A DNA stretch of 64,000 nt, from positions 62,001 through 126,000 of the forward strand of contig JAKLGA010000014.1 of assembly GCA_022710975.1 (NCBI GenBank). The letters run 5' to 3'. This document shows, in pieces, positions 41,508-46,513 of this stretch (within the stretch, counting starts at the first letter, position 1; every line of letters starts with the position of its first letter). The DNA comes from Myxococcota bacterium. GTDB taxonomy: Bacteria > Myxococcota > B64-G9. The notes beneath the pieces are model-generated. The model was given only the letters and a program-made list of their open reading frames with translations. It did not search any database and was not told the origin of the DNA. Made by a program: the position numbers and the translations under genes.

Positions 41508-44450
41508 TCAGCGCCCGCCGAGGGCGTGCTCGGCGCGCTCGATCAGCTCGAGCTGGCAGTCCCGGTTGAGATCGACGAAGTAGGCGTTGTAGCCCGAGAT
41601 GCGCACGATGAGATCGCGGTGGGAGTCGGGGTCCAGCAGGGCCTCGCGCAGCGCCGCCGAGCTCATGACGTTGAGCTGCATCTGCATCCCGCCCAGCTCG
41701 AAGTAGGCCCCGGTGTAGGCCGCCAGGCGCTCGACCACCCGCGCGTGCGGGTCCTGGGCCCCGGGCGCGACCTTCACGTTGAAGGCCAGGTTGTTCGGCA
41801 TGCACCCGCTCGGCAGGCCGGCCACGGCGCGGATCTGCTCGGTCAGCCCGGCCCCGGCGAGCTGCGAGGGGGTCAGCCCCGGGGTGAAGGGCTTGCCCCG
41901 CCGCCGGCCGCTGGGCAGGGCCCCGGACAGGAGCCCGAAGGCCACGTGGTTGGACATGCTCCAGTAGCCCGGCAGGTAGCGCCCGCCGCGGTAGTGCGGC
42001 TGCGCCCGGAACCGCTCCTGCACGAAGGCCATCAGCGCCGCCGCCAGCTCGCCGGGCAGCGGCTGGGTCTGGCCGAACTTGGGCGCGCCGGTGAGCAGGC
42101 GCGCGAGCACGCGCTCGTGCCCGACGAAGTCCGCCGCCAGCGCGGCCAGCAGCTCGGGGAAACCGAGCTCGCGGCGCTCGTAGACCAGGACGCGGATGGC
42201 GCACAGGCTGTCGACCACGTCGGTCAGGCCGATCATGGCCGTGCCGCTCGAGTTGTACTCGGCCCCGCCGTCGATGACGTCGCGGCCCGACTCGCGCGGC
42301 CCCAGGAACAGCGCGGACAGCAGCGGGCTCGGCTTGCAGGCCTGGTGGGCGCGGCCCAGCAGGTTGTTGGCCTCCACCGCGCGATCGATCAGCCAGCCGA
42401 GCTGGGTCCGGTAGGCCTCCAGGAAGGCCGCGAAGTCGGGCAGCGCCTGGGGCGCCGGCGTGCGCGGGCCCACCTGCTCCGCGAGCAGCGGGTGGCGGCC
42501 CTGGTGGAGCGCCATCTCCAGGGGCGCCACCAGGTTGAACATCATGCAGTTGGTGTGGCCGAAGTGGCGTCCGCAGCAGGTGGGCTCGACGCAGCCGGTG
42601 GCCGACCAGTCGCGGGCGTGCTCCAGGCGGAAGCCCTGGCCCACCAGGGCCGGCACGACCGCCGCGTCGTTGTGCATCGAGGGGGTGGCCCCGGTGATCA
42701 GGTTGACCTCGCACAGGCGCTGGAGGTAGGCCTCCGAGTTCACCCCCGGGGCGTAGCGCGCGTTGATGTTCGGATCGCGCAGCCCGAGCAGCTCGGTGGC
42801 CTTGAGGAACAGCCAGGTCGCGTCGCACACCGCGTCCCCGCCGTCGGGCAGCAGCCCGCCCAGCGTGATGACCTGATCGGAGGACGAGCCGCCGAACAGG
42901 CGGTTGCCCGCCTCGGGCACCAGCGGCAGGTGATCGGTGCACTTCAGCAGGAAGGCGCACACCAGCTCCAGCGCGGCGCGCACCCGCCGCTGGCGCTCGG
43001 CAGGATCGCTCGCGCCCTCGAGGTCGCGCCTGAGGTAGGGCTCCAGCCACACGTCCAGCCGGCCGATGCTCAGGCCGGCGTTCATGTTCTCCTGGTGCTG
43101 GCAGACCAGCAGGATCCAGGCCGCCTGCAGGGCCTCGCGCAGGGTGCGGGCCGGCCGGGCGGGTACGCGGGCGCAGGCCTCGGCCATGGCCTGGCAGCGC
43201 GCCCGCTCGTCGGGGTCCGCGCTCGTGGCCGCCCGCGCGGCCGCCTCCGCCGACAGGCGTCGGGCGTAGTCGAGCACGCCGTCGAGGGCCAGCGAGAGCC
43301 CGCGGTGGAAGTCGCGCCTGCCCGGATCCGCCTCGGCGCGCGCGGCGAGCTCGGCCTGGAGGTCGACGAGGCCTCGAGACAGCGCAGCGGGCAGGTCGAT
43401 GATGGTGTGCGAGACGGCCTGGGTCTTCCACAGGAAGTACAGCACGAAGCGCTCGTCCAGCCGGAGCGCCAGCGGATCGCCGTTCTGCCGCCGGGCCCAC
43501 TCGCGGATGTTGTCGTCCATCCAGAAGGGGAACACCTGGCGCGAGAGCACGGCCGCGTCCTCGGCCGACAGCCGGTAGGGGTTGAGCGCCCGCGCCTGCA
43601 CGCCCAGCAGCTCGGGCCAGATCCCCAGCCCGCCCGTCTCGGGGAAGATCTGCACGCCCAGGCGCTGCGCGGTGGTGGTGCCCGCCAGCAGGTCGTCCGC
43701 GTGGACGATGGCGCGCTTGTGGGTGAGCACGTGCGCGAGCACGCGGGCCTGGCGCAGCCCGGCGGGCTCGCCTGGCCGCTCCGCCCGCTCGCGCGCGCTG
43801 GCCTCGGTCCACAGCCGGGCGCGCTCCACGCACACGGCCGGTGGAGTGGTCCGGGCGGCCCACAGCAGGCGGTGCACCCGCGGCAGCTCGGCCAGGCTGA
43901 GGTCTGCCAGGTAGGGGTCTTCGAGCGCGCGCACCTCGGCGGCCGGGCGGGCGCGGCAGGGCTCCCCGACCCGCCGCACCGGGAACTCCTGCCAGGGACG
44001 GCGCGCGCGCGGATCACCGGCGTCCGGCGCGGGCGGCAGCACGCGCCCGCCCTGGCGGGCCGCGGCGGCCAGGTGGCCGAAGCGCAGCAGGTGGCTCAGG
44101 TTGCCCTCCACCGCCAGGCGGTTCTCCAGCATGAGCGACAGGGCGTCCCCGCGCGGGCCGAAGAAGGCGCGCAGATCGACGGGGGCGCGGAAGCGCAGCG
44201 TGGTGTCGGCCCCTGCCAGCGGGCCGAGGCCGACCCGCATGCGGCCGCCCGAGAAGATCGCGTGCACGCCGCGCCGGCCGTCCCCCAGGACGAGCTGCAG
44301 GCGGGCGCGGTAGCCGGGCGCGGGCGCCGCCAGCTCGCCGCGCAGCCGGGGGTGCAGCCGCAGGGTCGCGGCCATCAGGCCGAGCTTCAGCCAGGCCTCG
44401 GCCAGGGCCAGGCCGGCTTCCCAGGCGCGCGCGCGGGGGGAGGCGCTCAC
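41508..44450 (-). CDS. Glycyl radical enzyme with N-terminal SCP2-like domain
   Basis: 980 residues. The C-terminal ~850 residues are a pyruvate-formate-lyase-type barrel. The thiyl Cys620 lies in SATGCVEPTCCG, with Glu622 in the C-V-E arrangement of dehydratases and lyases, and the radical Gly953 lies in VRISGYNAYF. PFL itself has C-C at the active site, so this is not formate-lyase. In front, residues ~30-130 resemble SCP2 (LQLVLGDGRRGVHAIF, TTLRFRAPVDLRAFF, LAVEGNLSHLLRF), a lipid-binding fold, joined by a short Pro/Asp/Arg linker. The GTG start overlaps the gluzincin gene (GTGA). The activase follows. The substrate is unknown; the SCP2 domain suggests something hydrophobic, but that is inference. 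The enzyme works only without oxygen. Confidence 0.9.
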   Translation of the reverse strand: MSASPRARAWEAGLALAEAWLKLGLMAATLRLHPRLRGELAAPAPGYRARLQLVLGDGRRGVHAIFSGGRMRVGLGPLAGADTTLRFRAPVDLRAFFGPRGDALSLMLENRLAVEGNLSHLLRFGHLAAAARQGGRVLPPAPDAGDPRARRPWQEFPVRRVGEPCRARPAAEVRALEDPYLADLSLAELPRVHRLLWAARTTPPAVCVERARLWTEASARERAERPGEPAGLRQARVLAHVLTHKRAIVHADDLLAGTTTAQRLGVQIFPETGGLGIWPELLGVQARALNPYRLSAEDAAVLSRQVFPFWMDDNIREWARRQNGDPLALRLDERFVLYFLWKTQAVSHTIIDLPAALSRGLVDLQAELAARAEADPGRRDFHRGLSLALDGVLDYARRLSAEAAARAATSADPDERARCQAMAEACARVPARPARTLREALQAAWILLVCQHQENMNAGLSIGRLDVWLEPYLRRDLEGASDPAERQRRVRAALELVCAFLLKCTDHLPLVPEAGNRLFGGSSSDQVITLGGLLPDGGDAVCDATWLFLKATELLGLRDPNINARYAPGVNSEAYLQRLCEVNLITGATPSMHNDAAVVPALVGQGFRLEHARDWSATGCVEPTCCGRHFGHTNCMMFNLVAPLEMALHQGRHPLLAEQVGPRTPAPQALPDFAAFLEAYRTQLGWLIDRAVEANNLLGRAHQACKPSPLLSALFLGPRESGRDVIDGGAEYNSSGTAMIGLTDVVDSLCAIRVLVYERRELGFPELLAALAADFVGHERVLARLLTGAPKFGQTQPLPGELAAALMAFVQERFRAQPHYRGGRYLPGYWSMSNHVAFGLLSGALPSGRRRGKPFTPGLTPSQLAGAGLTEQIRAVAGLPSGCMPNNLAFNVKVAPGAQDPHARVVERLAAYTGAYFELGGMQMQLNVMSSAALREALLDPDSHRDLIVRISGYNAYFVDLNRDCQLELIERAEHALGGR

Positions 44451-46513
44451 GGCTCCGCCCCCCAGGGCTCGCGCCAGAAGTCGTCCTCGAGCTCCCCGGC
44501 GGAGCGGCCGAAGGCGAGCGCCAGGGCCTCGGCCGGCTCCCGGCCCGCGCGCAGCACGGCCAGGAGCACCATGACGCGATCCAGCCCGTGCCGGGCGATG
44601 AGCCAGTGCGCCATGCCGTGCGCCTGCAGGTACACGTCTCCGAGCGCCTCCGGATCGCCGGCCCGGGCGCCGAAGGCCTCGTCGAGCGCGTCCCAGGCCA
44701 CCCCGCCCGCGCGCCCCAGGGCGGCCAGCCCGCGGGCCTGCGCGGCGGAGAAGGGCCCGGTGGCCCACTGGGCCAGCCCCTCGGACAGCCAGCGCGGCGC
44801 GCGGGTGTAGGAGAGCTCGTCCACGTAGCGGTGGGCCAGCTCGTGCACCAGGATGTCCAGCCAGACCGCGCGGCTCCGGGCCGGGGCGTGGAAGGTGATC
44901 ACCCGGCCGAGGGCGTAGGCCCCGGTCTGGTGCGGCCCCACCCCCACCCCGGCCCGCTCCTGGAAGGCCCGCCGGTTGGCGAACACCAGCAGCTCCAGCG
45001 GGCCGCGCAGGCGATGCTCGAACACGCCCGAGGTCAGCGCGTGGGCCCGCTCCAGCGTGTCGCGCAGCCGGCCGGCGTCCAGGCCCTCGGGCAGCGTCGC
45101 GCGCACCTCGAGCTCGCCCACCCGGAAGCGTTCGTCGCGCGCCCGCTCCGGCAGTGCGCGCACGCCGTACAGCCGGTCCTCGAGCTCCGCGCGGCCGAGC
45201 GCGCCGGGCGGCAGGGCCAGGGCGGCGCGGAAGGCCGCCTCGGCCCGCTCCCAGGCGCCCCGGCGCAGCCACACCTCGCCGAGCTCGGCCTGGGCGTCGG
45301 CCGAGCCCGGGTCGGCCTCGAGCGCGGCCCGGCGGCGCTCGAAGCGCCGCGCCTGGGCCTCGATCAGCGCGCGCAGCCCGTCGGCCGCGAAGCCGCTCCC
45401 GCGGGCCTCCAGCGCGGTGCGTTCGAGGAGCGCGCGGGCATCCTCCCAGCGGGCCGCGGCGGTCAGGCCGAACACCCTGCGCGTGCGGCAGCGGAGCCAC
45501 TGCGCCCGGCAGCGCCGGGCCTGGTCCGCGCTGGCCTCGCGCAGCGCGGGTGGCACGTCGGTCCGCCCGGCCAGCGCCAGGTAGCGCCGGCGCGCCTCGG
45601 CGAAGGTCACCTCGGCCCAGGCGTGGTCGCGGGCGGCGAGCAGCAGCTCGGCCAGCTCCACGAGCGGTTCGGGGTTGTCGGGGTCCAGGCGGCCGGCCTC
45701 GTCGAAGGCCTCCTCCGCCGAGCGCAGCAGGCCCAGCGCCCGGACGTGCTGCCCGGTGGCCTGGGCGTACACCCACAGGCCCCCGCGCAGCTTGCCCAGC
45801 GCCCGCTGCAGCCCGGCCGCGAGCGGCTCGCGGATCGCGGCGGCCTCCAGATCCCGGACGGCCGTCTGCAGCATGGACTCGGCCGAGGCGTAGTTGGCCC
45901 GGGCCACCGCCATCTCGGCCAGGGTGCCGGTCAGCGCCGCGCGCACGAACAGGAGCTCCGGCGCGTCCGGGTGCTGGCGCAGGCCGCGCTCCAGGGTCTC
46001 GGCGGCCCGATCCAGCTCCCCGGCCTCCACGTGCGCCCGGGCCAGCAGCGCCCAGCGCATGGCCGACGCGGGCCCGTCGGCCAGCAGGGCCTGGAGCGCC
46101 TCCACGGCCGGCGCCGGCTGGCCGGTCATGACCAGATCGAAGGCCACCCGCTCCAGCGCCTGGCGCACCTGGCGCGAGAAGTCCGGGCCGAGCGGGTCGC
46201 CGCGCGTGGCCAGCATGAGCGCCAGCAGCCCTTGCCGCGCGGGCGCGAGCCGGCGCGCGCTGGCCAGCGCGTGGCAGGCCGACAGGGCGCCCTCGAGCGT
46301 GGCGCGCCGCGCGGGCCCGGGGGCCTCGGCCAGGCCGGGCAGGAGCGCCAGGTACAGCTCGAGCGCCTGGCCGGAGTCCCCGGCCTCGAGCGCCCGGGCC
46401 GCCGCCTGGAGCAGGGGTCCGGCCCGCGCCTCGTCCGCCCGGGCAGGGGCCGGGGCGCCCGCGAGCGCGGCGGGCACCCCCAGGAAGACGAGCAGCCAGG
46501 TCAGGCGGCGCAC
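44447..46513 (-). CDS. Exported TPR protein with C-terminal gluzincin peptidase (MA-like) domain
   Basis: 688 residues. A signal peptide MRRLTWLLVFLGVPAALAGAPAPARA is followed by a long array of TPR-like helical repeats (~30-460), then a zinc peptidase domain. The HExxH motif is HELAH (His557, Glu558, His561), with WLSEGLAQW supplying the third ligand Glu in the gluzincin manner, and a YLQAHGMAHWLI helix follows. Proteins of this layout (Peptidase_MA_2-like) are periplasmic or extracellular and largely uncharacterised. The ATG is clear and lies 13 bases after the PPC-lipoprotein stop. Its stop overlaps the GRE start by four bases, an unusual pairing of an exported protein with an anaerobic cytoplasmic enzyme. 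Confidence 0.83.
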   Translation of the reverse strand: MRRLTWLLVFLGVPAALAGAPAPARADEARAGPLLQAAARALEAGDSGQALELYLALLPGLAEAPGPARRATLEGALSACHALASARRLAPARQGLLALMLATRGDPLGPDFSRQVRQALERVAFDLVMTGQPAPAVEALQALLADGPASAMRWALLARAHVEAGELDRAAETLERGLRQHPDAPELLFVRAALTGTLAEMAVARANYASAESMLQTAVRDLEAAAIREPLAAGLQRALGKLRGGLWVYAQATGQHVRALGLLRSAEEAFDEAGRLDPDNPEPLVELAELLLAARDHAWAEVTFAEARRRYLALAGRTDVPPALREASADQARRCRAQWLRCRTRRVFGLTAAARWEDARALLERTALEARGSGFAADGLRALIEAQARRFERRRAALEADPGSADAQAELGEVWLRRGAWERAEAAFRAALALPPGALGRAELEDRLYGVRALPERARDERFRVGELEVRATLPEGLDAGRLRDTLERAHALTSGVFEHRLRGPLELLVFANRRAFQERAGVGVGPHQTGAYALGRVITFHAPARSRAVWLDILVHELAHRYVDELSYTRAPRWLSEGLAQWATGPFSAAQARGLAALGRAGGVAWDALDEAFGARAGDPEALGDVYLQAHGMAHWLIARHGLDRVMVLLAVLRAGREPAEALALAFGRSAGELEDDFWREPWGAEP

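Follow-up and report, generated by a model that had tools for sequence, protein, structure and literature searches.

Glycyl radical enzymes with a predicted N-terminal SCP2 domain, candidate eliminases of hydrophobic alcohols

The CXE motif is conserved among eliminases of the glycyl radical enzyme (GRE) superfamily, and in HypD both the Glu of this motif (Glu436) and His160 are essential (PMC7077986). The position of HypD His160 is occupied by Asp216 in CutC and by Gln193 in IslA (PMC8473560). All characterised eliminase GREs compared in this study have small polar molecules as substrates. That an SCP2 domain can be part of an enzyme for fatty-alkyl substrates is known from the SDS-type alkylsulfatases (PisA1, SdsA1).

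Here we describe a GRE gene in a window of 64,000 nucleotides from a Myxococcota bacterium (contig JAKLGA010000014.1, positions 62,001 to 126,000). Its product, termed SCP2-GRE, shares with glycerol dehydratase (GDH; 1r8w), propanediol dehydratase (PD; 5i2a), CutC and HypD the barrel fold, the GCVE and glycyl radical loops and an activase with a ferredoxin insert, and with GDH, PD and HypD the same His on beta-1 (His348); it differs from these eliminases by an extra SCP2 domain and is at most 33% identical to them. In contrast to the SCP2 family and the alkylsulfatases, the SCP2 domain is N-terminal here and attached to an anaerobic, oxygen-sensitive radical enzyme.

Domain architecture and radical machinery

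The translated gene is predicted to encode a complete GRE with intact radical machinery (Table 1). Residues 201-839 matched PFL-like (PF02901; Pfam, 4.5e-140) and residues 855-959 Gly_radical (PF01228; Pfam, 2.5e-16), both well above cut-off, and the features of the GRE superfamily (PFL-like barrel, RVxG(Y/F)-type radical motif, dedicated radical SAM activase) are all present. Translation and Pfam placed Cys620 (C-V-E) and Gly953 (ISGYNAYF) exactly where the initial annotation had located them. A full-length AlphaFold2 model (pLDDT 91.3, pTM 0.93) retrieved CutC, glycerol dehydratase and propanediol dehydratase as best Foldseek matches (TM-score (target) 0.92-0.94); together with HypD these are the nearest folds, all of them eliminases.

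Table 1. Features of the SCP2-GRE locus (positions in the window)
Feature	Position	Strand	Details and evidence
SCP2-fused glycyl radical enzyme (GRE)	41508..44450	(-)	980 aa, GTG start; translation, Pfam, AF2 model, Foldseek
SCP2-like domain, residues ~5-133	44052..44438	(-)	homolog Pfam matches, PDB profile search, AF2 model, Foldseek
Low-confidence linker, residues ~134-185	43896..44051	(-)	block pLDDT 55-68 (isolated-domain model); variable in N-domain alignment
His348, position of GDH/PD His and HypD His160	43407..43409	(-)	His in 63/63; Asp in CutC
Cys loop C620-V621-E622, thiyl radical Cys and CXE Glu	42585..42593	(-)	aligned with GCVE of GDH, PD, HypD, CutC
Gly953, glycyl radical site in RISGYNAYF	41592..41594	(-)	Pfam Gly_radical; invariant 63/63
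GRE-activating radical SAM enzyme, ferredoxin-type insert, 307 aa	40571..41494	(-)	TIGR02494; Radical_SAM and Fer4 (Pfam)
TPR-rich protein, Peptidase_MA_2 domain	44447-46513	(-)	translational overlap with GRE gene
Double zinc ribbon protein, 218 aa	39901-40557	(-)	immediately 3' of activase

The initial annotation had also proposed an SCP2-type segment at about residues 30-130. In the single sequence this signal is weak: a scan of the full protein with Pfam missed the segment, and the first 170 residues gave E=0.037 and 14.8 bits against PF02036, below the gathering score of 21.3, so that single-sequence Pfam would leave the assignment undecided. Homologous N-domains secured it. Three relatives from the same phylum have the domain too, with alignments beginning at residue 7, 25 or 47 of the window protein, and 21 of 43 homologous N-domains matched PF02036 (E<=1; best E 4.5e-5). 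A profile of these 43 N-domains, run against all PDB sequences, ranked SCP2 proteins at positions 1-3 and as five of the first six matches, the best with E 0.07. The isolated N-domain was modelled by AlphaFold2 with a pLDDT of 83.7, and Foldseek placed SCP2 structures first (AF1534, UbiJ, animal SCP-2; best E 2.8e-6, probability 1.00), with additional matches to the SCP2-like domain of alkylsulfatases. Identities to AF1534 (3bn8), UbiJ and animal SCP-2 as well as to the domain of PisA1 and SdsA1 are about 15-26% within the same fold. Predicted elements are helices 5-32 and 34-41, four strands in 49-87, helices 90-97 and 103-108, strand 112-116 and helix 118-134. As homolog matches, PDB profile ranking and the AlphaFold2/Foldseek results all give SCP2, we consider the domain call correct, and the models indicate that residues ~5-133 form an SCP2 fold. 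A profile search that showed no SCP2 similarity had been named beforehand as a refutation of this claim; similarity was found and the claim stands.

The activase gene lies just downstream of the SCP2-GRE gene, with 13 bases between them, and its product scored 237.9 bits against TIGR02494, exceeding the cut-off of 174. An activase homolog is present in 68 family loci at a median distance of 5 bp. The GTG start of the SCP2-GRE gene shares 4 bp with the stop of the upstream gene. The TPR/peptidase gene upstream and the zinc ribbon gene downstream were rejected as partners, neither being kept beside homologous GREs, and in the window's own genome the activase is the sole companion of SCP2-GRE. 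This genome has several aldehyde:ferredoxin oxidoreductase (AOR) genes, none linked to the SCP2-GRE locus. Besides SCP2-GRE, its only Gly_radical match is a second GRE, designated L015 (G000:C2:124387-126276), which measures ~900 aa and has Cys-Leu-Glu in its loop (GCLENTMQG).

Relation to known glycyl radical enzymes and active-site pocket

A maximum-likelihood tree was calculated from 37 SCP2-GREs, six solved GREs and a further five encoded in related genomes. The SCP2-GREs are monophyletic (support 100/100), and their identity to the six solved GREs ranges from 26 to 33%. The nearest reference is Archaeoglobus fulgidus PflD (95/93), a placement that the program flags as long branches meeting, and the sister group is therefore unsure. 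The same protein (2f3o) is the best single PDB match of the window protein (356 bits, ~30% identity); it lacks the SCP2 domain and its function is unproven. The five other GREs (L007, L008, L012, L013, L019) group in a supported clade of their own without named references; L015 is not among the sequences of this tree. The best alignments to solved GREs begin near query residue 185-190 or later, which leaves the N-domain without a counterpart in the characterised GREs tested. Thus both the separate cluster and the absence of this domain from known GREs, as put forward in the initial annotation, were borne out for the GREs tested, and no clustering was found with a characterised GRE that has the same N-terminal domain. 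Its association of the C-V-E arrangement with eliminases agrees with the conservation of CXE among GRE eliminases (PMC7077986). A long CutC (9f3w_A, 1150 aa) has an N-terminal extension whose residues ~125-286 resemble part of the GRE domain, apparently a degenerate GRE repeat.

The family profile scored 488-550 bits against the eliminases GDH, PD, HypD and CutC, compared with 303 for MasD, 274 for BSS, 210 for HPAD and 132 for PFL. None of the NCBIfam equivalog cut-offs was approached by the window protein or by three distant members. Pyruvate formate-lyase, with its Cys-Cys active site, was rejected because SCP2-GRE has a single Cys in GCVE and scores 97 bits for TIGR01255 (cut-off 994). CutC was rejected because His348 and Asp525 replace its Asp216 and Phe395 (TIGR04394, 335.6 bits; cut-off 1050), and HypD because Ala458 stands at the position of its Asp278 (NF043068, 307.5 bits; cut-off 1100). 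Sulfopropanediol dehydratase and arylacetate decarboxylase missed their NCBIfam cut-offs widely. By these sequence comparisons, SCP2-GRE belongs to the known GRE superfamily and matches no named enzyme family tested.

An alignment of 63 family members (MAFFT; GDH residue numbers by manual count on the printed chain) showed that Cys620, Val621, Glu622, His348 and Gly953 are invariant in 63/63, so the CXE eliminase motif is present throughout as C620-V621-E622. The site of His348 is also a His in GDH and PD. Trp341, Lys342, His632, Thr633 and Trp830 are likewise invariant in the family. Other contacts are exchanged: GDH His281-Ser282 corresponds to Ala458-Gly459 and GDH Asp447 to Asn634 in nearly all members, and therefore SCP2-GRE is not a standard small-diol dehydratase of the glycerol or propanediol dehydratase kind. 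A Ser-rich loop with Asp525 replaces the aromatic residues of GDH and CutC; the profile alignment pairs Asp525 with HypD Asp339, whereas MAFFT shifts it by one residue, opposite a HypD Phe. In all, most contact positions of the pocket carry other residues than in any of the small-substrate eliminases compared. Its tight conservation across Bacteria and Archaea suggests that SCP2-GREs share one substrate class, which would be different from the known ones.

Family distribution and gene context

Scanning 84,980 species genomes yielded 80 loci. The same N-domain occurs at 78 of them, in a region of 164-201 aa ahead of the GRE core; of the other two genes, one lies at a contig edge and one has an interrupted reading frame. 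Bacterial hosts comprise Myxococcota, Desulfobacterota (Smithella, Syntrophaceae, Desulfatitalea), Actinomycetota, Chloroflexota, Spirochaetota, SAR324 and Bacillota (rumen Clostridia); archaeal hosts are Lokiarchaeota/Sigynarchaeota (Asgard). The records come from MAGs or other assemblies of uncultured organisms, which makes the individual host assignments uncertain. The distribution is patchy within Myxococcota (5/174 genomes), and no relatives were found among the viral contigs scanned. Judged from these loci, the fusion defines a family and not a single fusion event. The open-access literature searched, which covers few subscription journals and no preprints, gave nothing relevant on a GRE-SCP2 fusion, the two terms co-occurring only in an unrelated fungal genomics study; a description elsewhere is possible.

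For the gene context, same-strand genes within 2.6 kb of SCP2-GRE were counted with the closest relatives excluded, and genes drawn at random from beyond 5.2 kb served as control. TetR regulators were found in 17/123 cases versus 2/121 in the control, classical SDRs in 13/123 and 3beta-HSD/epimerase-type SDRs in 11/123; both SDR types were absent from the listed top of the control, that is, at most 2/121 each, and the TetR/SDR context derives mainly from Desulfobacterota. In Syntrophaceae and Desulfobacterales, TetR comes first, followed by GRE, activase, extended SDR and classical SDR. The best models for the extended SDR are HpnA, OleD and SdmB, with scores far under the cut-off in each case. 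Homologs of AOR occur at 13 loci and a fatty-acid CoA ligase at 10, in both cases partly in very close relatives. Small subunits do not recur among the neighbours. Loosely, this context hints at lipid metabolism.

Two further arrangements were observed. At five desulfobacterotal loci (L062, L066, L074, L078, L082) the extended and classical SDRs are apparently fused into proteins of ~620-670 aa, as judged from a domain check of L078. A divergent class III aminotransferase-like gene lies near the GRE at four loci in Lokiarchaeota and Actinomycetota (L104 8458-9717 (-), L057, L068, L072).

Proposed reaction and alternative explanations

We propose, with about an even chance of being right, that SCP2-GRE is the large subunit of a GRE subfamily that had no name so far, and that this CXE-type eliminase converts a hydrophobic alcohol bound by its SCP2 domain. 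An eliminase is favoured because the nearest folds, the profile ranking and the invariant C-V-E and His348 all point to eliminases. A lipid substrate is favoured by the SCP2 fold, the SDR/TetR/AOR/CoA-ligase context and the alkylsulfatases that share the SCP2 domain, which act on fatty-alkyl esters. Counting against this reading are the exchanged GDH contacts (His281-Ser282 and Asp447), the lone activase beside the gene in the window's own genome and the mainly desulfobacterotal origin of the SDR/TetR neighbours. Most likely, SCP2-GRE would strip a hydrophobic molecule of a polar group; to name a fatty acid, a sterol or a terpenoid as this molecule is conjecture.

In the proposed reaction, the activase would install a radical on Gly953, which would then pass to Cys620. 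Cys620 would take a hydrogen from the hydroxyl-bearing carbon in the head of the hydrophobic substrate, and Glu622, with His348, would deprotonate the hydroxyl. Departure of an adjacent OH, amine or similar group would yield an aldehyde or ketone and return the radical. By holding the greasy tail, the SCP2 domain may allow a water-insoluble lipid diol or amino-alcohol to reach the barrel, and the carbonyl product could then be processed by the neighbouring SDRs, AOR and acyl-CoA ligase. More tentatively, SCP2-GREs may constitute a widespread and so far undescribed group of radical eliminases that work anaerobically and bring their own lipid carrier, cleaving a C-O or C-N bond in the head of membrane-type lipids or others insoluble in water (long-chain diols, alkylglycerols, sphingoid bases, hopanoid or sterol polyols).

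The strongest alternative, which we regard as unlikely though worth serious attention, is that the SCP2 domain is a structural or docking module for membrane/lipid anchoring, oligomerisation or radical protection, and that the barrel uses a small polar substrate. The small substrates of all characterised eliminases among the matches, the flexible linker of the isolated-domain model, the unrelated N-terminal extension of a CutC (9f3w) and the lower conservation of the N-domain (mean column identity 36% vs 58% for the whole protein) are in line with such a role. However, the N-domain is kept in Bacteria and Archaea wherever the gene is complete, the pocket is unlike that of the small-substrate eliminases at most contact positions, and 3beta-HSD/OleD-like SDRs and a fatty-acid CoA ligase are among the neighbours.

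Decarboxylase GREs also carry the Cys-X-Glu motif, and delivery of a fatty or steroidal acid to the barrel would be a conceivable task for a carrier domain. Decarboxylation of hydrophobic carboxylic acids, in the manner of arylacetate decarboxylases, is nevertheless improbable: the scores for the indoleacetate decarboxylase and HPAD models, 177.7 and 127.6 bits, stay far below the curated cut-offs (1100-1150), and HPAD requires a small subunit, of which none recurs near SCP2-GREs.

Slightly less probable still is an alkane-activating enzyme that adds fumarate, of the alkylsuccinate-synthase type, a role proposed for Archaeoglobus PflD and its PflD-like relatives in Asgard archaea. This explanation matters because published annotations describe PflD-like GREs from Asgard archaea and oil reservoirs as Ass-like and alkane-activating (PMC8163825, PMC10134868); in addition, A. 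fulgidus PflD adjoins the family in the tree, with the long branches flagged, and a lipid-binding domain would fit alkanes. Against it, the eliminase CXE Glu is retained in 63/63 members, MasD and BSS score far below the eliminases, the neighbourhood shows no recurring small subunit, and the Ass activity of A. fulgidus PflD is itself a suggestion. That the N-domain is not SCP2 and a weak motif was over-read, as the Pfam score of the window protein below its gathering cut-off could imply, was rejected as very improbable, given that profile, fold and homolog tests all return SCP2.

If the lipid reading of the preferred eliminase is true, the substrate would be new for the GRE superfamily, and if the built-in carrier is real, use of a fused lipid-binding domain would be shown for the first time in GREs. 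That bacteria of several phyla and Asgard archaea retain this domain suggests an anaerobic alteration of lipid head groups that lies outside the named pathways. The database names of SCP2-GRE genes are probably formate C-acetyltransferase or PflD. Metagenomic PflD-like GREs have been interpreted as alkane-activating (PMC8163825, PMC10134868), and a correct assignment of SCP2-GREs would also alter ecological inferences.
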